Below are positions 1-11,505 of a DNA stretch of 13,094 nt, piece after piece. The DNA is from Victivallales bacterium (GTDB lineage: Bacteria; Verrucomicrobiota; Lentisphaeria; Oligosphaerales; Oligosphaeraceae). Positions within the stretch are counted from its first letter, which is position 1; the number at the start of each line of letters is the position of its first letter. The DNA is taken from the NCBI GenBank assembly GCA_017431185.1, contig JAFRLP010000596.1, forward strand, positions 1 through 13,094. Direction: 5' to 3'. The translations under genes and the position numbers were made by a program. The notes beneath the pieces are model-generated. The model had not been told where the DNA came from and ran no database searches. It was given only the letters and a program-made list of their open reading frames with translations.

Positions 1-442
1 GAGCATGGTACTCCGGTTCCCAGACGCCACGTGCCATTCCGTCGCACATCGCCTCGACAATACCTGCGCCATTCCAGCCGATGGGTACGCCTTTCGCAAG
101 GGGCACGTCGCGGTAGCACGTGAAGCCACTCGCCTCGATGGACTCGAAATCGGGGTTTCCGATGCAAGTGTAGGCGGTGAAGACCGGCGGCAGTCCGTCC
201 CGTCCCTGGTGGGACGCAAGGACGGCCTGAAGTCGAGCAAGGTCTTCCACCGTCTCCAGGCGGCAATCAAGTCCGGCGACGCATCCGTGCCGTGCCAGGG
301 CGGCGCGGTAGTCAGGAAGCAGGGAGGAGTCGGGGACAACTTCGCAGGCCCCCCAGTCGTCGCTTTCGAATACGACAATGGGGCAGCCGCACAGCGCGGG
401 TTCAAAACGGCGTCCATAGATTGACTGTTTTGCTCGCATCAT
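1..442 (-). CDS. Polysaccharide-deacetylase-like protein, N-terminal part (truncated by window edge)
   Basis: Only the first 147 residues are present; the 3' end lies beyond the left edge. The frame reads M-M-R-A-K-Q from ATG at 442 (a second ATG follows at 439). Visible landmarks are a buried strand ending in SDDWG (27-31), VFTAYT (87-92), NPDFE (96-100) and WEPEYH (141-146). These fit NodB-like polysaccharide deacetylase relatives in which an Asp pair and later His residues bind a metal; the expected His-rich part would lie just past the edge. No signal peptide is seen, so it is probably cytoplasmic. An AGGAGA Shine-Dalgarno (447-452) sits 4 nt before the first ATG. The ATG at 442 overlaps the TGA of the upstream regulator gene as ATGA, so the two are probably translationally coupled. 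Family assignment is from motif memory; deacetylase activity is inferred and the substrate is unknown. Confidence 0.7.
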   Translation of the reverse strand, partial: MMRAKQSIYGRRFEPALCGCPIVVFESDDWGACEVVPDSSLLPDYRAALARHGCVAGLDCRLETVEDLARLQAVLASHQGRDGLPPVFTAYTCIGNPDFESIEASGFTCYRDVPLAKGVPIGWNGAGIVEAMCDGMARGVWEPEYHA

Positions 443-1791
443 CCATTCTCCTCTGGATTGAGCCGAAGACTCTCCAAAAGGAGCATTTCACCGATGGCGG
501 ACTTGACCTGCCCGATACACTCCTCCTCGGTTAGCCCTCCTGCGAAGAAACGCTCAAGGGTGGGATAGACTCGCAGGTAGATGGCGCCACGCATCTCCTC
601 GGAAAGATAGGTCTCCACCGCGTTCTCCAGAAGGGGGGCGACGGTGGCGTGGAGCGGCGGCGCCTTGGCTTTGAGGTCACGGCGGAAGACCCCCGCATGG
701 CACGGGATGCCATAGGCCTCATCGACTATCAGACGCTGAACAGCCTCGGAGCGCAGATGCGAGGCGAAGAGCCAGGCCTCTGCGGGGTGGGGACATTTGG
801 CGTTGATGCCGACGCGGATGGTCTCGACAAGATAACGTCCCTGGCAGGGTAGCGGGGCAAGTTCGTAGCAGCCAGGCAATCGGTTCAGGTTCGGCGCGTA
901 GTAGCCGACGAGGAGCGAGAAGCGCCCCGCATTCGCCTCCTCCAGCACGGCGTGCGGCGCAAAGTTGTTCCATGAGGTGCGCCACTTGTTGTATTGCCTC
1001 AGAATATGCAGGAGCAGCGCCAGTTGGCGTTCCCAGGCCAACCCCTGTATGCCACGCCGCAGGTCCCCGACGAAGAAATGGAAGAGCGAGGAAAAGCCCA
1101 GGAGCGTTGCGGAGTGCCGTCCCTCGGACTCAAGACGCTGGTTCAGGGCGTGGAATTCCTCCCAGGTCTCCGGCGGGCGCAGGACATCCGCTCTGCGATA
1201 GTACAGCACCGGCATGGTGAGCATGAGCGGGACGGTGCATTCATCCTGGAACTTCAAGCAGCAGCGTCCGAAAGCACGGAAATATCGGGTAAGGTTCAGG
1301 AAACGCCCCTCTCTTATGAGCGGCAGAAGCGCGGCATGGCTCCCCTGCACCAAGTCATGGTCGGCGTCGCGGAGGAAATCAAGGGAGTCGGTTTTGTCGA
1401 GCATGATGCGAATCCAAGGGTATTTCTGCTGAAAATCGCCGATGATGCGAGTCATCTGCGTGGGAAGGAGGACGGAACTGGAATCGACCAGGTAGCGTAG
1501 AGTCACCTTCCGTGTGCGAAAGAGTTCGCCGACGGCGCTCCAGGAGTTTTCCGCACGTCCAAGCGCACGGAGTCCAGGCTGACTGATGCGTGTGCCGCCC
1601 CGTCCGGGAGCCGACAAGACGACCCCCGCATCCGCAAGGAGCTTCACTGCCTTCCCGATGGTCAGCGGGGTTGTGCCGTAGGTGCGCGCCAGTTCGGAAA
1701 TGGGCGGCAGGCGTCCGTCCTGGAATTGTCCCGCCAGGATTTTCGCCTGGAGGTCGTCGTGGATTTCCTGGTATTTGGAGGGTTTGGACAT
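439..1791 (-). CDS. GntR-family winged-helix regulator fused to a solute-binding-protein-like sensor domain
   Basis: 450 aa from ATG at 1791. Residues 7-70 form a GntR winged helix: YQEIHDDLQ, then LPPISELARTYG, a recognition helix around TPLTIGKAVKLL, and the wing APGRGGTRI. After a linker, residues 96-440 resemble an ABC-type extracellular sugar-binding protein (family 1), not the usual LacI-type or UTRA sensor: KVTLRYLVD and FQQKYPWIRI at the first strands, LYYRRADVLRPPETWEEFHAL (195-215), and AWLFASHLRSEAVQRLI with GIPCHAGV near the C terminus. No signal peptide or membrane segment is seen, so the sensor should be cytosolic. An in-frame extension up to 1995 was refused because it lies entirely inside the upstream gene and homology begins at the chosen Met. 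No strong Shine-Dalgarno is seen; the 13-nt gap suggests coupling to the upstream gene. It probably senses a sugar and controls its own operon and the divergent one. HTH is certain; the binding-protein fold is likely. Confidence 0.85.
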   Translation of the reverse strand: MSKPSKYQEIHDDLQAKILAGQFQDGRLPPISELARTYGTTPLTIGKAVKLLADAGVVLSAPGRGGTRISQPGLRALGRAENSWSAVGELFRTRKVTLRYLVDSSSVLLPTQMTRIIGDFQQKYPWIRIMLDKTDSLDFLRDADHDLVQGSHAALLPLIREGRFLNLTRYFRAFGRCCLKFQDECTVPLMLTMPVLYYRRADVLRPPETWEEFHALNQRLESEGRHSATLLGFSSLFHFFVGDLRRGIQGLAWERQLALLLHILRQYNKWRTSWNNFAPHAVLEEANAGRFSLLVGYYAPNLNRLPGCYELAPLPCQGRYLVETIRVGINAKCPHPAEAWLFASHLRSEAVQRLIVDEAYGIPCHAGVFRRDLKAKAPPLHATVAPLLENAVETYLSEEMRGAIYLRVYPTLERFFAGGLTEEECIGQVKSAIGEMLLLESLRLNPEENG

Positions 1792-1804: not shown

Positions 1805-2581
1805 TCAGGAGAGGAAATGGGTCTGAAGATGCTCGCGCATGGCCTTGAAACTACAGTGGGATGAGCGGGGTTGGAAGAGGAGTCGTCCGGTATCAAGATA
1901 AAACTGGGCGGTGCGACGGTTGAGCCTGCCGTCCGCAGCGATGAACTGCCCCAGAAAACCGAGGTTCGCGTGAATGCCCGAATGCGGGCTTCCAAGGTTC
2001 CTCAACCACTCTTCCGGAAAAAAGCACAGGAAGCGCGGTTCCGACAGAAGCCAGGAAAAGGTGTATAGCGTGTCATATTGCGGATATGCCTTTGCCGCCG
2101 CCTCCAGGAGTTCCACGAGCTGCACAGCAAAGCCATGCGCGTCATTCAGGAAGGAACGCGGGCGCACACCGTTCCACAGATGAATGATGCACCAGGATGG
2201 CGGAAGTTCCGGATGCGGCTCCTGCCAGCGCACGCTACGTCCCTGTGCGAACAACGGGTTCCAGGCATACGCGCCCGCAAAATTGCGTGAGGCAAACTCC
2301 GATAGGATTGGACGAAAGCGGGTCACGGCCGCGTCAAAGTTCATGTCGCACGCGGACAGGAACTCCTCCACAACGGACGGGAATTCCGAAAGTTCACAGG
2401 CGGCGTCGCGAAGCCACCACGAAAGAAGCGTGTGCCTCCGCAGAATTTCGGAGAACGTCTTCTCCAGATGGTCTGCACGGTAGCGACGCGCCATCGCCGC
2501 CGTGAAATCGTAGAATTCGCGGCATATCGGAAGGTACTCTTCCGAAGAGGATGGCGGATAGTGGAGACTGTCGCTGGGCAT
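1805..2581 (-). CDS. Conserved hypothetical protein, first gene of the regulator operon
   Basis: 258 aa, soluble, with no signal peptide or membrane segment. I cannot name its family. The second half has features typical of a conserved domain: PPSWCIIHLWNGVRPRSFL (127-145), LYTFSWLL (172-179), FLCFFPEEW (184-192), GFLGQFIAADGRLN (208-221) and a TGRLLF strand (231-236), with many Trp, Phe and His residues. The first half (20-100) is predicted to be mostly helical. It begins the leftward operon, 13 nt before the GntR-type regulator, and faces the sugar-enzyme operon across the promoter region. That position suggests a role tied to the locus, but enzyme, accessory or regulatory function cannot be told apart. 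No clear Shine-Dalgarno precedes ATG 2581; the nearest in-frame alternative Met is residue 30, which would cut into the predicted helical start. Confidence 0.75.
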   Translation of the reverse strand: MPSDSLHYPPSSSEEYLPICREFYDFTAAMARRYRADHLEKTFSEILRRHTLLSWWLRDAACELSEFPSVVEEFLSACDMNFDAAVTRFRPILSEFASRNFAGAYAWNPLFAQGRSVRWQEPHPELPPSWCIIHLWNGVRPRSFLNDAHGFAVQLVELLEAAAKAYPQYDTLYTFSWLLSEPRFLCFFPEEWLRNLGSPHSGIHANLGFLGQFIAADGRLNRRTAQFYLDTGRLLFQPRSSHCSFKAMREHLQTHFLS

Positions 2582-2636
2582 GACCGTGAAAACAAAAGGG
2601 GGGATGGATGAAATAAACTATCTCATTTTGCTTTAT

Positions 2637-2665
2637 AATATATGTTATCTGTTTTGGCATGTCAA
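2637..2665 (-). promoter_or_regulatory. Predicted promoter for the leftward regulator operon
   Basis: On the minus strand a perfect TTGACA -35 box (2665-2660) is followed by 17 bp and TATATT (2642-2637), one mismatch from the sigma-70 -10 consensus. A start of transcription near 2630 would give a leader of about 50 nt before ATG 2581. The -10 core reads ATATATTATAA, identical to that of the facing promoter. Based on consensus matching only. Confidence 0.65.
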
Positions 2666-2781: not shown

Positions 2782-2810
2782 TTGCAAAGAGAAAAAGTGT
2801 ACAATATATT
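2782..2810 (+). promoter_or_regulatory. Predicted promoter for the rightward enzyme operon
   Basis: TTGCAA (2782-2787) lies 17 bp before TATATT (2805-2810), with the extended core ATATATTATAA at 2804-2814. The -35 matches consensus at 4 of 6 positions and the -10 at 5 of 6. A start near 2817 gives a leader of about 53 nt that carries the inverted repeat at 2833-2852. The weaker -35 compared with the facing promoter would suit an activated or tightly controlled operon (inference). Confidence 0.6.
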
Positions 2811-2832
2811 ATAACACATCGAACACATAACC

Positions 2833-2852
2833 GACTGGTCGCCCAACCAGTC
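2833..2852. promoter_or_regulatory. Inverted repeat, candidate operator or leader hairpin
   Basis: The arms GACTGGT and ACCAGTC are perfect 7-bp complements separated by CGCCCA. The repeat lies just after the predicted transcription start and abuts the Shine-Dalgarno AAGGAG (2853-2858), which is 11 nt before the ATG. It could be an operator for the neighbouring GntR- or XRE-type regulator acting as a roadblock, or a small RNA hairpin affecting ribosome access. A further GACTGGT half-site is at 2682-2688. Function is inferred. Confidence 0.5.
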
Positions 2853-2869
2853 AAGGAGCACGAACCGAA

Positions 2870-4711
2870 ATGCCAATATACGAGAACCGTCAGAATTCGG
2901 AGAATCGGGTGAGTTTGTCTTCAGAGCAACTTGCCGGACTGTCATCAGGGGAAAAGGCCATTGCCTCGCTTGTGGACGCAGTGTCGGCCAAGTTATCCGG
3001 CCAGCCGGGCGCCGTTCTTCGGCTGGATGGCTGGTATGGCGTGGACTACGGACGGATTGCCGCGCAATTAGCGGAGGCGGTGCAAAAGCGTCGGGGAAGG
3101 CAGGCGGTCGTTTATCCGACCGCCACCCTGTTCAAGCCGGCAGATGCGCTGGCGCGCCAGAAGCACCCTTGGATAACGGACGAGCCTGCGTTCGGAAAAG
3201 TGAACACCTGCGAAACCCTGGCGGACTACACTACCGCCGAGGGAATTGCCGATATGGACTCCAAACTCAAGGCGGCAGTCGCCGCAGGACAGGTCGCGGT
3301 GCTGGCTGGCCCTGGCGCCGCCCTGGCAGGCGGCTCTTTGCCAGGCGTATTGGCGTACCTTGACCATACGGCCGACCCGATGCTATGGAAAATGTGGACT
3401 GGGACCCTGGTGCCGTTTGGCTGCATCACCCCTAGGTCAGACTATGGCTGGAAAGAGTACTACTACTGCGATTTCTATGTCCTGCAACGCCACAAGGAGG
3501 AGATCATCGACGATTGCCGCTTCTGGTGCGAGGCCATCCACGCCGACCATATAAAACTGCTGTCCAAAGACATCTACGACGAGACTCTTGCCCAACTCGC
3601 GGCACAACCTCTCAAGCAGATACGGACTTATTCACCAGGGCCGTGGGGTGCCTACCGCTATCGCGACCTCTGGGACATCCCAGGCCTGCGGAACAACGCC
3701 TGGAATCGGCTGGCTGGAGCCGATCTGGCGCTGCTGGTGCAGTTGTCAGACGATTTCGCCGTCGATATGCCCATCGTAAACCTGCTCAAGCACCACGGGG
3801 CCGAACTCGTCGGCGCATTCTCCCATACACACTATCCGGGCCTCATCCCCGTGGAAATCTGGCTGGACGACGGTTACTTCCCCACCCCGCAGCCAGCAGA
3901 GCGTACCAGCATGCCCATCCACAACCATCCAGGCACCGAGTACGTCAAGAGGCACTTCAACGAGCCATTGGGACGCTACGAGACCTACTACATCGTGGAG
4001 GCCTACCAGGGGGCCAACACCCACATGGGTTTCCGCGAGGACGCCTGCCTGGAGGAATGGGAACGGCTATGCCGGGAGTCCTGGGCGGAGCAGAAGCCCA
4101 TTCCCAATTGGCAGGAGTACATCGCCAACTGGGAGACCTGCGTAGGTGATCTATTCCTCATTCCCGAGGGCACCACGCATGGCCATGGCGGGAACCAGAT
4201 GGTTCTGGAGATGGACACCTGCGGCAATGCCGCTGGCGGAGAATATTCCTTCTTCGGCTACGACTTCATGCGTCCCACCTGGGATGACAACAAGGGAACA
4301 ATGACTGGTTCGCCCATGAAGATGCATCTGGACCGCTATTTCAGCATTGACAAAGGATGTCGTGCTTCCTACGTGCGTGACCACCTGCGTCCACGTCCCA
4401 AAGTGGTGAGTTGGAACCGTGAATTCAGTGTGGAGCGCTTCGACACCCTGCCGCAGATGCCCTTCCACATCGAGCGGATACACTTCACGGGACATGCCGA
4501 GTACACCACCCAGGGGAAATTCCTCCAGGCGGTAACCTTAACGGTCGGTCGCCAAGCCACTATCCGTTCCAAGGCGCATCCCGAACGCCAGACGGTCATC
4601 GACCTCCTTCAATGCGCCTTGATACCCGCCGCCTTCGGCGAGTACGATATCTTCACAGAAGAGGGCTGTCCAGCCACAGTGGTGCTCTGGCAACTCAAAC
4701 AGGGAGAGTAA
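2870..4711 (+). CDS. Class I mannose-6-phosphate-isomerase-like cupin enzyme with N-terminal kinase-like domain
   Basis: 613 aa, cytoplasmic, first gene of the rightward operon; AAGGAG lies 11 nt upstream. Residues 45-185 resemble the nucleoside/uridine-kinase-like domain of long PMI proteins: VLRLDGWYGVDYGRI where a P-loop would sit, AFGKV, then AVLAGPGAAL (143-152), but no GxxxxGK loop. SPGPWGAYRYRDLW (255-268) begins the isomerase part. The PMI cupin follows: HNHPGTEYV (351-359), ETYYIVEA (371-378), GANTHMGF (381-388), VGDLFLIPEGTTHGHGGNQ (425-443) and EYSFFGYDFMRPTW (458-471). H351 or H353, E371 and H437 are plausible metal ligands. Class I PMIs interconvert fructose-6-phosphate and mannose-6-phosphate. 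A different aldose or a non-phosphorylated sugar is possible, because the domain pairing and the context of glycosidases do not fix the substrate. The family is fairly sure; the reaction is not. Confidence 0.75.
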   Translation: MPIYENRQNSENRVSLSSEQLAGLSSGEKAIASLVDAVSAKLSGQPGAVLRLDGWYGVDYGRIAAQLAEAVQKRRGRQAVVYPTATLFKPADALARQKHPWITDEPAFGKVNTCETLADYTTAEGIADMDSKLKAAVAAGQVAVLAGPGAALAGGSLPGVLAYLDHTADPMLWKMWTGTLVPFGCITPRSDYGWKEYYYCDFYVLQRHKEEIIDDCRFWCEAIHADHIKLLSKDIYDETLAQLAAQPLKQIRTYSPGPWGAYRYRDLWDIPGLRNNAWNRLAGADLALLVQLSDDFAVDMPIVNLLKHHGAELVGAFSHTHYPGLIPVEIWLDDGYFPTPQPAERTSMPIHNHPGTEYVKRHFNEPLGRYETYYIVEAYQGANTHMGFREDACLEEWERLCRESWAEQKPIPNWQEYIANWETCVGDLFLIPEGTTHGHGGNQMVLEMDTCGNAAGGEYSFFGYDFMRPTWDDNKGTMTGSPMKMHLDRYFSIDKGCRASYVRDHLRPRPKVVSWNREFSVERFDTLPQMPFHIERIHFTGHAEYTTQGKFLQAVTLTVGRQATIRSKAHPERQTVIDLLQCALIPAAFGEYDIFTEEGCPATVVLWQLKQGE

Positions 4712-4714
4712 ACC

Positions 4715-7060
4715 ATGCAAAGCCAAACCAAAGGACATCATTTCACACACTTTCTCGTGATGCTTGTGTTCCTGTTGCTGGCGAAGCTGGCCCAAGGTTT
4801 GGAACTCACTGCACAGGCCTCCGTCTGCGCGCATGGATTACGCGGCAAAGTTGACCAGATTGCGGTGGAGGAGCTGCTCTCCCATCTGGAGCGGATTTTC
4901 GGTCGGCGTCCCGACGTCGTTTCGGACGGCAATGCCAATGCGCCAGGCGCGACCATCGTACTGCAAAGCGAGGCGACGCTCTCGCCGGAGGAGTGGCGCA
5001 TTCTCGCCACTGAAAGCCAACTGCTGATTGCGGGCGGTTTTCCACGCGGACTGTATTATGGCGTTTGCGAATTTCTGGAACGCTTTGCGGGCGTGCGCCA
5101 TTTCACGAAGAACGATTGCCTGATTCCCCAGAGGGAAAGCTTCACGATTCCCCAGGGGCAAGTGTATCGCCGCAAACCCGCCTTTCCGCTACAGCGCAAA
5201 ATCGTCACCGACGTCGAATACGGCCAGGACAATGACCATTTCTATGCCTTCAACAAGGCAACCTGCACCACCGACAGCGATTTTCCTGACGACCTGCACA
5301 CCAGCCCCAGCGTTGGAGGAGGCTGCCATACCTTCCACATCTACACCCGCCTGATTCCCCAGGACCGCCCTGACATGTTGCCCGTGAATGCCGAGGGGAA
5401 GCCTGTTCGAGCCACCTCTGGCATGGGGCCTGGACAGATTTGCTTCACAAATCGGGATTTCAGGGAATTGGTCAAACGCGAGGTTGGCAAACAAATCGCC
5501 GAACGACATGCACTAATCCAAAAGTTGGGCGTGGCACCATCCAGTGTCCTTGGCTGGTACAATCTCTCCCAGAACGACAACGACAGCTATTGCCGATGCG
5601 AAGGGTGCAAGGCGCTTGTCTCACAATACGGCACAGTCTCCGGCGCCCTGCTGGATTTTGTCAATGACATAGCCTCCACCTATCCTGACATGCTGTTCGA
5701 GACATTTGCCTACATGGGAACCGAAGAGCCTCCCCACGGCATACGTCCCCGCGAAAACGTCATGATGCAGTTTGCCCAGATAGGCAGGTCTGGCGTCTGG
5801 TACGACTCCCTGCGTCCGCTCTCCCATCCAGCCAATGCCACCCCGCTGCGCATTCTGGACTCCTGGAATGGCATTGCTGGAAAGCGTTCCATCTGGGCCT
5901 ACCACCGCCTGTACGAGATGAGCGAGGCCTTCGCCTGGCCTCAGTGCATGTATTGGTATATCTCCGAAAACATGCGACGCTATCGAGACTACGGGGCACA
6001 GCGTGTCTTTGTGGAAGCCGAGTACTGTCGAGGCGGCATTTACGCTCCGCGAGCCCTCCATGACCTGCACAACTACCTCACCGTCAAACTCATGGATAAC
6101 CCAGATGCGGACGGAGAGGCGCTCGCCAACGAGTTCCTTGCCGGAGTCTATGGGCCAGCAGCGCCCGCCATCCACGACTACGCGCTTTATCTCAGGAAGC
6201 GTCTTGACGGCATCGAAGGCTCCATTCCAGCCAAACCGCTCTGGTCCAGAAAACTGCTGGACAGGGAGTTCTTCCAGAATGTCTGGCATTGCCTGGACGG
6301 GGCGGAGAAACTTGCCGCAGGGGACTCCTCCCTGCTGAACCACATTGCGGTGGAGCGCATTCCTGTCGATTTTGCGGCATTGCATATTTGGGATGAAAGC
6401 ATAGAGGCCTGCGCGGGGATGAAGCGCGAGGAGGTTGGCGCACGGCTGTCCCGCTGCGTCAAACTGGCCTGGGAGCGTTTTCGCCCGCACCCTTCCTCCA
6501 ACTATTATGACCAGATTGGACGGCAGCATCTCCAGAAGACCCTGGCGTTCATTGAGACTTTGCAGAAATCAATAGCCGTTCCTTCAGGGCTGGCCAATCG
6601 GAAACTGGTGCAGATGCCGGTCGCCTCCCGCTATCCAGGCGAGGCGATTGAAGACGCCGACGCGACGCTTGGCAGGGCATTGAAACTGGGGGACATGCCA
6701 GGCAAAACCTACAACCATGACCTGAAGCCAATGGAGTTCGGCATCTACGACCAACAGCAGAAGAGAGTGATCATTCGCCGAGAACTCAAACCAGAGGAGG
6801 TGCCTCAGGACGGCCAATACCACCTTTTTCTTGTCGGCACCTACACCTTGCCAAAGGAGCCTCCGCTCATCCAGGCCTGGGGACAGGCCTCCTGGAAATT
6901 GCCCCTCACCAGAATGGTCAATGACCTGTGGCGAGAAGAACGGATTGGAAAAAGTTACGAGGTCTATGTCTCGGCAAAACTCATCGGTCCCGCTTACGTG
7001 AAGGGTTCCCAGGACGAAAATGCCGTCTATGTCGATAGAATGATTTTTGCAGAGGAGTAG
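4715..7060 (+). CDS. Secreted DUF4838-type glycoside-hydrolase-like protein
   Basis: 781 aa, with AGGGAG (4701-4706) 8 nt before the ATG and a 3-nt gap from the upstream stop. A signal peptide is evident: a charged start, the hydrophobic run FLVMLVFLLLAKLA (13-26) and a probable cut after AQG at about 28. Residues 45-150 look like the small alpha/beta domain that precedes catalytic barrels in GH20- and GH67-like enzymes (IVLQSE, LLIAGGFPRGLYYGVCEFLE). The central part carries the DUF4838 hallmark GWYNLSQNDNDSYCRCEGCKAL (280-301) with Cys 293, 295 and 298, followed by FVNDIA (315-320), PDMLFETFAYMGTEEPP (324-340) and AEYCRGGIY (435-443). A helical region and a C-terminal beta-rich domain (about 680-781) follow. 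E337/E338 or D288 could be catalytic (inference). The family is linked to polysaccharide loci but has no settled activity. It probably acts on an external glycan outside the cytoplasmic membrane. Confidence 0.82.
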   Translation: MQSQTKGHHFTHFLVMLVFLLLAKLAQGLELTAQASVCAHGLRGKVDQIAVEELLSHLERIFGRRPDVVSDGNANAPGATIVLQSEATLSPEEWRILATESQLLIAGGFPRGLYYGVCEFLERFAGVRHFTKNDCLIPQRESFTIPQGQVYRRKPAFPLQRKIVTDVEYGQDNDHFYAFNKATCTTDSDFPDDLHTSPSVGGGCHTFHIYTRLIPQDRPDMLPVNAEGKPVRATSGMGPGQICFTNRDFRELVKREVGKQIAERHALIQKLGVAPSSVLGWYNLSQNDNDSYCRCEGCKALVSQYGTVSGALLDFVNDIASTYPDMLFETFAYMGTEEPPHGIRPRENVMMQFAQIGRSGVWYDSLRPLSHPANATPLRILDSWNGIAGKRSIWAYHRLYEMSEAFAWPQCMYWYISENMRRYRDYGAQRVFVEAEYCRGGIYAPRALHDLHNYLTVKLMDNPDADGEALANEFLAGVYGPAAPAIHDYALYLRKRLDGIEGSIPAKPLWSRKLLDREFFQNVWHCLDGAEKLAAGDSSLLNHIAVERIPVDFAALHIWDESIEACAGMKREEVGARLSRCVKLAWERFRPHPSSNYYDQIGRQHLQKTLAFIETLQKSIAVPSGLANRKLVQMPVASRYPGEAIEDADATLGRALKLGDMPGKTYNHDLKPMEFGIYDQQQKRVIIRRELKPEEVPQDGQYHLFLVGTYTLPKEPPLIQAWGQASWKLPLTRMVNDLWREERIGKSYEVYVSAKLIGPAYVKGSQDENAVYVDRMIFAEE

Positions 7061-7063
7061 GCA

Positions 7064-9130
7064 ATGAACGACCTTCTGAACATGTTTGCCATGACCGAGC
7101 GGGAGTCCTGCCAGGCCCCCGAGGACAACGGCCTGGTCAACGGGCGGATAGCCGTCAACTCATGGCTGCCAGACGTGGCGGAGATACGCGGTCTCTTTGC
7201 CCCTCCGCTGTTCAGCAACAACTTCCGTCTGGCCATGCGGGTCAATGACCGACAGATTGCGACGGCCCACTACGAGTGGCGTCCGGACCGCCTGACCCGC
7301 ATCGGTTCGCAGAGTGGCCTGCATGTCCACACCGAATTGACGCCGTTGAGCCAGACATCCGCCATGCTGCTGCGAACAGAAGTCACCAATCTAGCCCGTA
7401 AATCAACGACCTTTCATCTTCAACACGAGGTCTATGGCGGGGTCAATCAACAGGAGCATTGGCGGTTTGGTCATCCCACAGCCAACTGCCACGCTGACAA
7501 GGAGTGGGACGGCAAAACACTTTATCTGCGCAACGCCCAAGGAGAGATACAGGTATCATCCTCATTGCCCCTGACTGCCTACAGACCAGTGAGGACAGGG
7601 GTGCTCAATTCCCGTGAAATCATCCTGAAACCTGGGGAGCACCTAGCCTTCTGGACTTTTTTGTCTCTGGGAAAAGTCGGTGAACACGACCAATTACGGA
7701 AAGAGTCGCTGAAGCATCCCGAAGAACAGGTTGGCCAAACCCACGTCTGGTGGCAGTCGAGGGTGAAATGGCTTTTTGCCCAAATGCCAAGCCTGGCGTC
7801 GGACAACCGACAACTCGTGGCCTATTATCGGCGCAGCCTGCTGCACCTGCTGATGAACGAGTGGAATGTGCCTGGTTTCCTGTTGCATCCGCACTATGGG
7901 ACTGGCAGCATATCGGGAGACACCATCTGCAGCTACATGTGGAACTACGGCGGTCCCTACCGACTCTGGAGCATGCTTTCGCCCCAATCCGCCAGGGAAC
8001 ATCTTCTGCATCTGCTTGGTCTCGATTTGGCCAATTGCTACGCCTTCCACGCCGATGACGGCACCGCATTCGGTCCCTATTACCCCATCAACCACGAAAA
8101 GGTCATTTTCCTGGCGTACTACTACGTGCTCCAGACTGGCGACAGCGGAATCCTGCGCAAGAAAATCCAGGGCAAAAGCGTCATTGAGCACTTGGTTGAA
8201 CACGCGCTGGCGCACGACAATCCTGCAAAAAAGGTCGGATTGGTCAATTATGGACCCGCCAATGACCACCTGGAACTGCGCAGTCCGACCTTCAACGAAG
8301 ACCCGACCATGCGTTACAACGGGGTAATGCCAGACCTGAACCTGCGCCGATGCCCTCTGATGCACCTGGTGGCCATTCTCTGCCGCCTGGCGGGGCATCG
8401 TCCGACAGTTGACTTGGAGAAACGCGCAGAGACCCTCAAACGGCTCATTCACCGCAAACTCTTCTCTTCAGAAGAGGATTGGTTCCAATGCCTGAACACC
8501 GAGGGGCCGCCCGTGTTCCGCTATACCATCCAGATGTTCAAAGCGCTCGGCTGGGGAGACTGGGCCTTGGAACCAGAGGCCGAACAGGCGCTGCTAAAGC
8601 ACTTGATGGCCGATGGCGAATTTCTGGGGCCGTTTGGCATGCACTCCCTCTCACGCAAAGACCCCGCCTATTACGAGGGCGATGTCGATAACGGCGGTCC
8701 TGGCGCGTGCGTCTCCTTCGCGGCCGCAGTCATCGAACGCCTGTACCGCGATGGGTACGCCGAGCAGGCTGCAAACATTCTGCAACGGCTTCTGTGGATG
8801 GGAGACGCATTGCCCTACTGGGGTGACTCCCAACGAGCCGACGTGAAGGACTACCGTCGCATTTCGCACCTGCAATGCGACATCGAGGGGGCAGTTCCAG
8901 CCCAGGCCATCATCTTCGGAATGTTTGGAATAGACGTGCGCCCTGACTTTTCCATCACCATCTCCCCGCACCTCTTCCCCGACACGCGAAAAATGGCCTT
9001 GCGCAACATTCGGCTGGCTGGACGGACTTTCGACATCCTCTGCACACCATCCGGCTTTTCCGTGAAGCACACCGGCAAAGAACAACACTTTGCCCACGGA
9101 GAGACCTGCACCCTGACATCAACGATTTAG
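7064..9130 (+). CDS. Six-hairpin (alpha/alpha)6 glycosidase-like protein, cytoplasmic
   Basis: 688 aa, with GAGGAG (7052-7057) 6 nt before the ATG and 3 nt after the previous stop. Three parts are visible: an N-terminal beta-sandwich (about 25-215), a helical toroid (about 240-600) and a small C-terminal beta domain starting near FSITISPHLFPD (629-640), the order seen in GH65/GH63/GH94-like enzymes. Toroid landmarks are GSISGDTICSYMWNYGGPYRLW (281-302), ADDGTAFGPYYPINHEK (330-346), NYGPANDHLEL (395-405) and YYEGDVDNGGPGACV (536-550). NYGPANDHLEL sits where GH65 enzymes carry the GPDEYH-type catalytic acid, so D401 or E404 is a candidate; E538 or D540 is another. No signal peptide is present, so it should act in the cytosol on imported oligosaccharides. 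The fold is fairly sure; hydrolase versus phosphorylase and the substrate cannot be decided. Close packing indicates one operon with the DUF4838 gene. Confidence 0.72.
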   Translation: MNDLLNMFAMTERESCQAPEDNGLVNGRIAVNSWLPDVAEIRGLFAPPLFSNNFRLAMRVNDRQIATAHYEWRPDRLTRIGSQSGLHVHTELTPLSQTSAMLLRTEVTNLARKSTTFHLQHEVYGGVNQQEHWRFGHPTANCHADKEWDGKTLYLRNAQGEIQVSSSLPLTAYRPVRTGVLNSREIILKPGEHLAFWTFLSLGKVGEHDQLRKESLKHPEEQVGQTHVWWQSRVKWLFAQMPSLASDNRQLVAYYRRSLLHLLMNEWNVPGFLLHPHYGTGSISGDTICSYMWNYGGPYRLWSMLSPQSAREHLLHLLGLDLANCYAFHADDGTAFGPYYPINHEKVIFLAYYYVLQTGDSGILRKKIQGKSVIEHLVEHALAHDNPAKKVGLVNYGPANDHLELRSPTFNEDPTMRYNGVMPDLNLRRCPLMHLVAILCRLAGHRPTVDLEKRAETLKRLIHRKLFSSEEDWFQCLNTEGPPVFRYTIQMFKALGWGDWALEPEAEQALLKHLMADGEFLGPFGMHSLSRKDPAYYEGDVDNGGPGACVSFAAAVIERLYRDGYAEQAANILQRLLWMGDALPYWGDSQRADVKDYRRISHLQCDIEGAVPAQAIIFGMFGIDVRPDFSITISPHLFPDTRKMALRNIRLAGRTFDILCTPSGFSVKHTGKEQHFAHGETCTLTSTI

Positions 9131-9169
9131 TCTTTTGCCTTTTCACCTTCCCAAACCAGGAGAAACATC

Positions 9170-9937
9170 ATGAAGAACAAAGGTTTTACGCTCATTGAAT
9201 TGCTCGTCGTCATCGCCATAATCGCCATTCTGGCGGCGATGTTGCTGCCTGCATTAAGCAAGGCGCGCGAGAAGGCGCGCAGCATCAGTTGCGCCAGCAA
9301 TCTCAAGCAGGTGGGATTGGGCTGGACGATGTACGCAGGCGACAACGAGGACTACGTGGTGCCCATGGTTGTCCGTGATTATGATAACAAATACGGCGTT
9401 GGGTTAATCATGGCTGTCAACGATGAACTTGGCCTCGGTTATCGCAAAATGGACAGTCCGCAGTACAATTTCACCACCGCCGAAGGAAACTACATCTATG
9501 TCTCCAAGATGATGCTCTGCCCCAGCGCATCCAAGCATCAGTACAACGCATCGTATGGCACACCTTCGTGGATCATGCTCGACTACACTTATAACGGCTG
9601 GTTCGGAATGTCACAAGGCGCGTATGACTGGTATTGCGCAGGAACAGGCGGACATGAAGTCCACAAACTCACCGAAATCCAGAAGAACGCTTCCCAGGCG
9701 CTGGTCTTCTGGGACGGCTGGAGACACCGCCAGGCCAACGGCCAAACCAGCAACGCTGACTCCAACGCCTGTGACTCCACCCAGGACACTAAAGCCTATG
9801 CGTCACATGGCAATGGACTCAACCAACTCTTCACCGACGGGCACGTCGAGCATAACCCGTTCTTCTACGTCAACCACACGGGACGCGGCGAACTCTTCAA
9901 TGTCTGGGATGCCTCCAGCGTATCCCAGGCTCGCTAA
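9170..9937 (+). CDS. Type II pseudopilin-like protein with prepilin signal and H-X9-DG motif
   Basis: 255 aa. AGGAG (9158-9162) is 7 nt before the ATG and the previous gene ends 39 nt upstream, with no promoter or terminator seen between, so it is probably the last gene of the operon. A class III prepilin signal is clear: KG|FTLIE with the predicted prepilin-peptidase cut between G5 and F6, then a 20-residue hydrophobic helix and the basic stretch KAREKAR. The C-terminal half contains H213, nine residues, then D223-G224, which is the H-X9-DG prepilin-associated signature common in Planctomycetes, Lentisphaerota and Verrucomicrobia. Trp- and Tyr-rich segments (for example 133-156) give a globular head. 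After processing it would sit in the cytoplasmic membrane or a pilus-like fibre. Its placement behind glycosidase genes suggests a part in capture or secretion connected with the glycan, but its exact job is unknown. Confidence 0.9.
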
Positions 9938-9970: not shown

Positions 9971-10024
9971 AGCCCCAGGCGCATATCAGGGCTTGCGATG
10001 TCGCGGGGCCGTGCGCCTGGGGCT
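9971..10024. repeat. 13-bp perfect inverted repeat with nested inner hairpins over the end of the XRE gene
   Basis: AGCCCCAGGCGCA (9971-9983) and TGCGCCTGGGGCT (10012-10024) are perfect complements around a 28-nt loop. The loop itself can fold: GCGA/TCGC (9995-10004) inside GGC/GCC (9990-9992 and 10008-10010). The TGA of the XRE-cupin gene (9986-9988) lies in the loop, so the right arm codes for its last residues. The position between two convergent genes suits a bidirectional terminator or transcript-end structure, but there is no T-run on either side. A REP-like mobile palindrome is the alternative. Confidence 0.6.
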
Positions 10025-10621
10025 CTTCGCAACGGGGGCAGCAGGATTGTCGCCTTGCACACGGTTGGGCATCACGGTCAGAAGCCGCGCCTGCTGGCCA
10101 GCCTCGCAATAGCCGCGAATACGGATGCCCCGAGGGACGTAGAAGGCATCCCCGCTCTGGAGATGTACACTGGGTTCCTCCCCCACATCCAGCACGATTT
10201 CACCTGATATGACATAACCTGCGAAATCGTGCTCCAAGGTCTCGAATTCAGGCAGTTTCGCGCCTGGAATATACACCTCGTCCATCATATCCAAATGGAT
10301 ATTGGGTCGGCGCGGGAAAATAAACGTATATTCACGGTCGTGGTCGGCGGCCATTTGCATCTTGCTCTTGCGAAAGACGTATTTTGAGTCATTGTCCTTG
10401 CTGTCGCTGAAAAACTCGGAGAAGTTTGTTCCCAGGGCGACCAGCACTTTGCGCAGCATTGCCAAAGTCGGAGACACCAGGTCTTTCTCAATGGACGACA
10501 GATAGCTGACCGACACTCCGGACATCTGCGAAAGTTGACGCAATGAGTAATTTCCACGCAAGCGCAGGTTGCGGATGCGCGCACCGATATTCACATTCGT
10601 CTGCTGTTTATCCTGTTGCAT
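9986..10621 (-). CDS. XRE-family regulator with C-terminal cupin domain
   Basis: 211 aa from ATG 10621. A GGAG motif (10632-10635) lies 10 nt upstream, inside the end of the previous gene, and 5 nt separate the two genes. Residues 12-66 are a Cro/C1-type helix-turn-helix: GARIRNLRLRGNYSLRQLSQMSGVSVSYLSSIEK, followed by SPTLAMLRKVLVALG. Residues 105-185 form a small cupin: EHDFAGYVISGEIVLDVG, then LQSGDAFYVPRGIRIRGY. Only one His of the usual cupin metal set (H131) is at a plausible position and the later His is replaced, so ligand sensing without a metal is likely. A longer start at 10768 was refused because it reads back through the upstream gene and adds unrelated residues. The tail SPRRTAPRHRKP is basic and is encoded within the hairpin element. 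It is the last gene of the leftward operon and probably regulates it or the enzyme operon. Confidence 0.88.
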   Translation of the reverse strand: MQQDKQQTNVNIGARIRNLRLRGNYSLRQLSQMSGVSVSYLSSIEKDLVSPTLAMLRKVLVALGTNFSEFFSDSKDNDSKYVFRKSKMQMAADHDREYTFIFPRRPNIHLDMMDEVYIPGAKLPEFETLEHDFAGYVISGEIVLDVGEEPSVHLQSGDAFYVPRGIRIRGYCEAGQQARLLTVMPNRVQGDNPAAPVAKSPRRTAPRHRKP

Positions 10622-10626
10622 AAGAT

Positions 10627-11505
10627 TCAATCTCCAAATACGGTTGCAAAGCGGTCGCAGAGTTTGCGAGCAGAGCAGCCGTGGGCAATGAGTTTGACCT
10701 CGCTTTGGATGCTTTTCAGGCGGGGAGCCTGACGAAGCAAACGGACAATCCTGCTCCAGTCCACACACCCCTCACCAGGCGGCAGGTGCTGGTCAGCAAA
10801 ACCGTTGTTGTCGTGGAGATGGCAGTTCACCACATGGGGGAGCATCTTCTCCAGTGCCTGGTCCTCCCACTCCACCTCCATCCCGCGCGCCCCCCAGCGT
10901 TCCCTCGCCCCGCCACCTTCGGCGGATTTGGCGTGGGAGGAGAGGATGTTGGCGTGTCCGGAGTCGAAGCAAAAGCCCAGGGTCTCCGTCGGGAATTCCC
11001 GCTTGAAGGCCAGCAGGCTGTCGGGACGGGAGATGACGTTCCAGCTGTTCTCGATGCACAGGGTGACGCCGCAGCGTTCAGCCTCTGGCAGAAGCGCCTC
11101 CAGATTACGGCAGGCATTGCTGAACAGCTTTTCCAAGGGAATCTCCGCCGCCAATGCGTCATTGCCGATATGAAAAGTCATCGTGTCCACGCCCAGTTCA
11201 GCGGCAATGTTCAGTTGCAGTCTGCTTAGCAGGATGCGGTGCTCCTGCATCGGGTCACCATAGAGCATCAAATCGTATGGCAGTCCAAACAACGCATGGG
11301 AATCCACCAGATCCAACCCTGCCCGGGACAATTCGTTCGGCAGGGTTTTCAGCAGGGAAGCGTCCTGAAGAATCTCCGCGACCAGAAACTTGTTGAGCAC
11401 CAGATGCCTGACTCCGGCAGACGCCAATTCGGCCAGAATGAAAGGACGCAGTTTCGGAGTGATCTCCCTGAACTCCAGAAAATAGGTGAAAGGCGCTGGA
11501 AACAT
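10627..11505 (-). CDS. TIM-barrel sugar-phosphate isomerase/epimerase-like protein (xylose-isomerase-like, AP-endonuclease 2 fold)
   Basis: 292 aa, cytoplasmic, usual length for the family. Strand-end motifs are in the expected order: LVDSHALFG (66-74), MTFHIGND (109-116), TLCIENSW (148-155), LGFCFDSGHAN (176-186), CHLHDNNGFADQHLPPGEGCVDW (228-250) and QSEVK (267-271). E152, D181, H184, H229 or H231 and E269 are likely metal or substrate ligands. Members isomerise or epimerise keto and aldo sugars or inositol derivatives using a divalent metal; the substrate cannot be assigned. The gene follows the secreted hydrolase by 17 nt and precedes the XRE-cupin regulator by 5 nt. There is no clear Shine-Dalgarno before ATG 11505. 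All key residues seem present, so the enzyme is probably active. Confidence 0.85.
   Translation of the reverse strand: MFPAPFTYFLEFREITPKLRPFILAELASAGVRHLVLNKFLVAEILQDASLLKTLPNELSRAGLDLVDSHALFGLPYDLMLYGDPMQEHRILLSRLQLNIAAELGVDTMTFHIGNDALAAEIPLEKLFSNACRNLEALLPEAERCGVTLCIENSWNVISRPDSLLAFKREFPTETLGFCFDSGHANILSSHAKSAEGGGARERWGARGMEVEWEDQALEKMLPHVVNCHLHDNNGFADQHLPPGEGCVDWSRIVRLLRQAPRLKSIQSEVKLIAHGCSARKLCDRFATVFGD

Follow-up and report, generated by a model that had tools for sequence, protein, structure and literature searches.

The subfamilies of GntR regulators are defined by their C-terminal domains, four main and two minor ones, namely FadR, HutC, MocR, YtrA, AraR and PlmA (PMC4494728, PMC12842492). 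The window analyzed here, i.e. the whole stretch of 13,094 bases, contains a gene which an earlier note had read, from the DNA alone, as a cytosolic GntR regulator whose sensor was recruited from transport. This locus thus raises the question of what kind of sensor the protein carries, how widespread the fusion is, and what it may control.

Domain architecture and location of the regulator

The regulator gene can be divided as follows.

439..1791, minus strand: regulator gene, 450 aa, GntR winged helix plus family 1 solute-binding protein (SBP) sensor (open reading frame, Pfam, structural model and fold search)
1597..1776, minus strand: GntR winged helix-turn-helix domain, residues 6-65 (Pfam PF00392, E 7.3e-9, above cut-off)
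1510..1581, minus strand: inter-domain linker, about residues 71-94 (low model confidence, pLDDT below 50 at residues 71-92)
457..1509, minus strand: family 1 SBP sensor with type II periplasmic-binding-protein fold, residues 95-445

The PF00392 head places the protein, by profile, in the GntR superfamily, and the same domain was matched in all nine members of alignment A2 (E up to 0.01). The head had been described as a standard GntR domain, which holds for the profile match and less so for the recognition helix. The arginines that belong to the usual GntR pattern are replaced in this helix, which reads TPLTIGKAVK in the window regulator and SLLTVNNAVK in close relatives, the latter having Asn or Leu at the positions where Arg is usual; the head is thus not fully standard.

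The C-terminal part comprises about 355 residues, based on the open reading frame and the model. By profile and by fold it matches family 1 sugar SBPs (CbpB, MalE, and trehalose/maltose-binding protein), and the predicted structure contains both lobes and the full sensor length, consistent with a two-lobed family 1 fold, although the Pfam SBP_bac_1 profile barely exceeds its cut-off in the window regulator. Pfam gave PF00392 and SBP_bac_1, and no Peripla_BP (LacI-type) match was obtained at E up to 1; Pfam profiles and the fold search therefore agree with the fusion proposed earlier. Equally, no Pfam match was found at E up to 1 for the FCD/FadR α-helical C-terminal domain or for UTRA, in line with the claim that LacI-, UTRA- and FadR-type sensors are absent, nor for the aminotransferase of MocR proteins, for the SgrR-type HTH, or for SBP_bac_5. 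No LacI-type sensor was present among the 50 VIA-align matches listed, a listing that leaves room for such matches outside it, and the NCBIfam HutC model aligned with the head only (26.1 bits for a cut-off of 220). YtrA proteins have a very short C-terminal domain. On these sequence features, the regulator fits none of the FadR, HutC, MocR, AraR, or YtrA subfamilies.

Family 1 sugar SBPs work for transporters outside the cytoplasm; the window regulator shares their fold and profile but possesses a DNA-binding head, and hydropathy revealed neither an export signal nor a lipobox, as had been claimed for the signal peptide. The maximum hydropathy of the first 50 residues did not exceed 1.17 in the 37 ORFs taken as fusions, versus 1.85-3.12 in all lone SBPs but one (12 of 13); P0014 (0.19) apparently has a truncated start. 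In three of the 37 fusions (P0004, P0006, and L024), hydropathy over 19 residues peaks at 1.75-2.09 inside the protein, compared with 1.36 in the window regulator. No ABC permease was matched by Pfam among the 9 ORFs scanned in the window, which ends inside the orphan gene C2 (see below), and none of the permease matches listed lies on the 12 contigs carrying relatives of the regulator. Six permease matches were found in genome G001, the source of relative L001, which is a Lentisphaeria metagenome-assembled genome from sheep colon.

Spread and expansion of the fusion

The narrow margin of SBP_bac_1 in the window regulator could be taken as a sign of chance juxtaposition or artefact, i.e. a mis-assembled gene, or an SBP for export whose N-terminus merely resembles GntR. 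We give this reading practically no credence: it is already contradicted by conservation of the fusion, the same domain order recurring across many contigs and genomes, and by the lack of a signal peptide in the hydropathy profile. About 5.8 billion proteins were searched with a 4-sequence alignment; of the 8 proteins recovered, 3 were rows of the query, and both GntR and SBP_bac_1 had been pre-assigned to all 8 (including those 3 rows). The wider profile A3, from which the near-copies P0003, L003, L014, and L015 were left out, returned 10 proteins: 3 fusions, P0010, P0011, 4 lone sugar SBPs, and 1 MocR-type protein. P0010 is itself a row of the A3 query, with SBP_bac_8 and SBP_bac_1 matches slightly under cut-off, and P0011 is a relative of P0010 labelled GntR only. 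With P0010 (L037:2607-4052), G001 encodes a second regulator of the GntR plus SBP type, a diverged one, and ORFs resembling it, of about 490-526 aa, occur in further genomes of the class.

Within the class of G001, taken as Lentisphaeria, at least 13 of 197 genomes match the regulator at E up to 1e-18, a lower bound because at most 8 candidates were scored per genome. A phylum sample of 387 genomes (4 candidates scored per genome) gave 12 matching genomes at the same threshold, all within the class sample, one of which (G136) matches with the GntR half only. In the phylum of G002 (Oscillospiraceae), 85 of 299 genomes match at E up to 1e-12; none of the matches listed spans both halves, in a search that scored 5 candidates per genome and could miss diverged fusions, and five long GntR ORFs from this phylum comprised four of MocR type and one with GntR only. 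Neither the viral contigs scanned with P0001 nor the genome contigs searched in a first profile search with alignment A1 yielded a relative.

A tree of 37 fusion SBP halves and 13 lone SBPs, containing many long branches, requires at least 3 state changes, and a single fusion clade was not rejected (p-AU 0.299). The further phylum-search matches L053-L070 were not part of this tree; L023 (G183), one of the 13 class matches, was left out of both alignment and tree because part of its locus reads N.

In 12 of the 13 matching class genomes, PF01547 was matched 62 times (E up to 1e-5). G066 accounts for 15 of these matches, and 10 of the 15 fall within ORFs (450-484 aa) with an additional GntR match. 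Of four further long GntR ORFs scanned in this genome, L121 carries SBP_bac_1 above cut-off, L123 and L124 have weak SBP_bac_8 matches under it, and L122 matches GntR only. G001, for its part, has a single PF01547 match at this threshold, which is the relative of the window regulator. Among 20 PF01547 loci from 10 genomes, selected for ORFs of 450-548 aa, a GntR head was present in 16 (including the near-copies L088 and L089) and absent in 4. Some of the proteins that match as transport SBPs in this group of genomes are probably transcription factors.

A 464-aa GntR protein of G066 without Pfam-recognised sensor (L122:585-1976) is divergent from the GntR plus SBP regulator L079. By count, this 5.2-Mb genome has 100 GntR matches, 76 of them in ORFs of 335-410 aa. 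Eight GntR ORFs of 335-379 aa were sampled; 7 of them matched Peripla_BP, 6 above cut-off, and LacI-type and SBP-type sensors therefore coexist in G066.

The requested survey of spread thus finds the fusion to be recurrent across genomes, with many copies in at least one, and for this reason it has the appearance of a branch, so far undescribed, of the large and well-studied GntR family. We consider it likely that these proteins form an undescribed GntR subfamily with a cytosolic family 1 ABC sugar-binding sensor, expanded in at least one Lentisphaeria genome as local glycan sensors.

Gene neighborhood and candidate operators

The regulator is flanked by two orphan genes and faces a divergent set of genes.

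1805..2581, minus strand: C3, 258-aa orphan gene directly upstream of the regulator (synteny, alignment)
1..442, minus strand: C2, start of an orphan gene truncated by the window end, with a VVxESDDWGA motif
2870..9937, plus strand: divergent genes, inferred target (Pfam)

In the window, 13 bp separate the end of C3 from the regulator ATG and the start of C2 overlaps the regulator stop, so that C3, regulator, and C2 appear, from their spacing, to be laid out as an operon. No Pfam or NCBIfam model scored above cut-off for either C3 or C2. Over 13 loci (window, L001, and L026-L036), C3 is close to the regulator in 8 and C2 in 10; the three genes stand side by side in this order in the window, L001, L026, L027, and L029, and order or distance varies in the other loci. 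Of the 13 genomes matching the regulator, 10 contain C2, versus 5 of 184 others, and in 9 of those 10 it lies on the regulator contig, up to about 11 kb away. C3 is more widespread (65 of 197 class genomes, E up to 1e-10). C3 and C2 also occur together on stretches L130 and L131, which gave no match to GntR or SBP. C2 relatives have about 400 aa, and their alignment shows invariant Asp and His residues, which we take to be reminiscent of NodB-type deacetylases. For C3, the predicted model (two sequences; pLDDT 61.4, pTM 0.54) is too weak for a fold search.

Since C3 has no known function and shares the regulator's operon, the SBP half might have ceased to bind a ligand and serve as a dimerisation or protein-docking module, e.g. 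for C3 or a transporter; the divergence of this domain, with 16-28% identity between the window regulator and its ten most distant members, points the same way. We regard this as quite improbable, as the model retains both lobes over the full length, the distant members keep the full sensor length too, and the permease searches described above gave no match in the 9 window ORFs scanned, nor does any permease match listed fall on the 12 contigs with relatives.

The divergent genes encode a 613-aa protein without family, a DUF4838 protein, a protein with a weak, below cut-off match to MGH1-like glycoside hydrolases, and a DUF1559 pseudopilin. More generally, genes near the regulators of the window and its relatives include GH123_N, DUF4838, DUF4434, and pseudopilin-like proteins; DUF4838 and DUF4434 are linked to glycan degradation. 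The window pseudopilin (9170-9937), with N-methylation motif and DUF1559, comes after the glycan-type genes, and its BLAST cluster has members in 13 of 14 loci compared. Further on, an HTH_3 plus cupin regulator (9986-10768) adjoins a gene for a xylose-isomerase-like TIM barrel.

Promoter-like sites and candidate operators lie between the two divergent transcription units.

2637..2665, minus strand: promoter-like site of the C3-regulator-C2 operon (TTGACA, 17 bp, TATATT)
2634..2649, minus strand: copy 1 of the candidate operator, an AT-rich element covering the -10, with ATATATTATAA at 2633-2643
2612..2627, minus strand: copy 2 of the candidate operator, lying 22 bp downstream from copy 1 (its best self-match is 10/14)
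2797..2817, plus strand: copy 3 of the candidate operator, covering the divergent operon's -10, with ATATATTATAA present exactly at 2804-2814

Allowing up to 1 mismatch, the 13,094 bases contain two occurrences of ATATATTATAA for 0.01 expected, and both overlie the -10 boxes of the two divergent promoters; this expectation overstates the case because the -10 itself provides 6 of the 11 bases that the two sites have in common and because intergenic GC content is below that of the window (0.396 vs 0.576). An 11-bp inverted repeat arose in 5 of 1000 shuffles of the 288-bp intergenic region. For the repeat at offset 22, the mean best self-match over 12 upstream regions was 8.25/14, compared with 5.61 after shuffling, and none of 1000 shuffles reached it; offsets 15 and 25 were likewise high (6 of 1000 shuffles each). 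These statistics describe rather than prove the repeat, which was noticed by eye before testing. It is clear in 5 of the 12 regions (window 10, L001 13, L026 11, L028 13, and L029 12 of 14), and the other seven score 3-8 (L031 8, the remaining six 3-7), so a 22-bp repeat common to all relatives is not supported; L027, a near-copy of L026, was left out of these counts. Across 14 generic promoters the offset-22 self-match averages 5, with one at 9. A palindromic operator was rejected as unproven, the symmetry of copy 2 being reached in 75 of 1000 shuffles.

By eye, the GT/AC core of the GntR consensus, a palindrome of the type NyGTNxACNy (PMC4494728), is not clear in copies 1 and 2; in copy 3, GT and AC occur towards the ends. 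The same source names Arg-G and Asn-A as frequent GntR-DNA contacts, and Asn in place of Arg in the recognition helix of close relatives would fit an AT-only candidate site. A terminator-like hairpin is located just upstream of the divergent gene (2831-2854, minus strand).

Proposed mechanism and relation to known regulators

The reading that we favor, and which we hold to be rather likely, is that of a cytosolic GntR one-component repressor with a recruited family 1 SBP sensor, in which sugar loosens DNA binding. The sensor would be an ABC sugar-binding protein taken over without its export signal. A dimer of the regulator would bind the AT-rich elements overlapping the -10 of its own operon, and probably also the one at the -10 box upstream of the divergent glycan genes; at these sites it would block RNA polymerase. 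A sugar or short oligosaccharide freed by the locus could then close the two-lobed domain and, allosterically, weaken DNA binding.

The same architecture could instead act as an SgrR-like activator, with sugar switching the divergent operon on and the protein acting as a repressor at its own promoter, and the poor -35 of the divergent promoter (TTGCAA) resembles those of activated promoters. GntR proteins are mostly repressors, however, and the candidate elements over the -10 boxes occupy a repressor position, which makes activation unlikely despite the precedent of DsvR and SgrR, the latter activating sgrS and repressing itself (PMC13060122, a preprint; PMC4021124).

Sensors of the ABC SBP type are known in principle from other regulators. 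SgrR combines an SgrR-type HTH with SBP_bac_5, and Btr/YbbB of Bacillus likewise recruited an ABC substrate-binding domain, of siderophore type and behind an AraC DNA-binding domain, unlike the window regulator. DsvR, an SgrR homologue, has a predicted N-terminal HTH and a C-terminal SBP_bac_5 (PMC13060122, preprint), and Btr is tabulated as AraC with a FeuA-like substrate-binding domain (PMC3896406). SgrR and DsvR resemble the window regulator in their ABC SBP-type sensor, carbohydrate link, and autoregulation (here proposed), but differ in HTH type and in SBP family (5 rather than 1). The AraR subfamily also joins a GntR head to a sugar sensor of periplasmic-binding-protein ancestry; the AraR sensor is of LacI/GalR type (PMC4494728), whereas the window regulator has a sensor of about 350 residues that belongs to the family 1 ABC SBPs. 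A survey of GntR proteins counted 76 companion domains, and the words 'SBP' and 'solute' are absent from its main text (PMC5882156). Among the open-access PubMed Central papers listed by our searches, we found no description of a GntR plus family 1 SBP regulator, of such a subfamily, or of its expansion.

If correct, this reading would add a further sensor type, derived from the sugar-uptake machinery, and extend the GntR subfamily scheme. Many sugar complexes of family 1 SBPs have been solved, as the titles of the fold matches indicate, so that structure-based ligand prediction could be feasible for such regulators, which would open a way into glycan breakdown in a gut lineage that has received little study.
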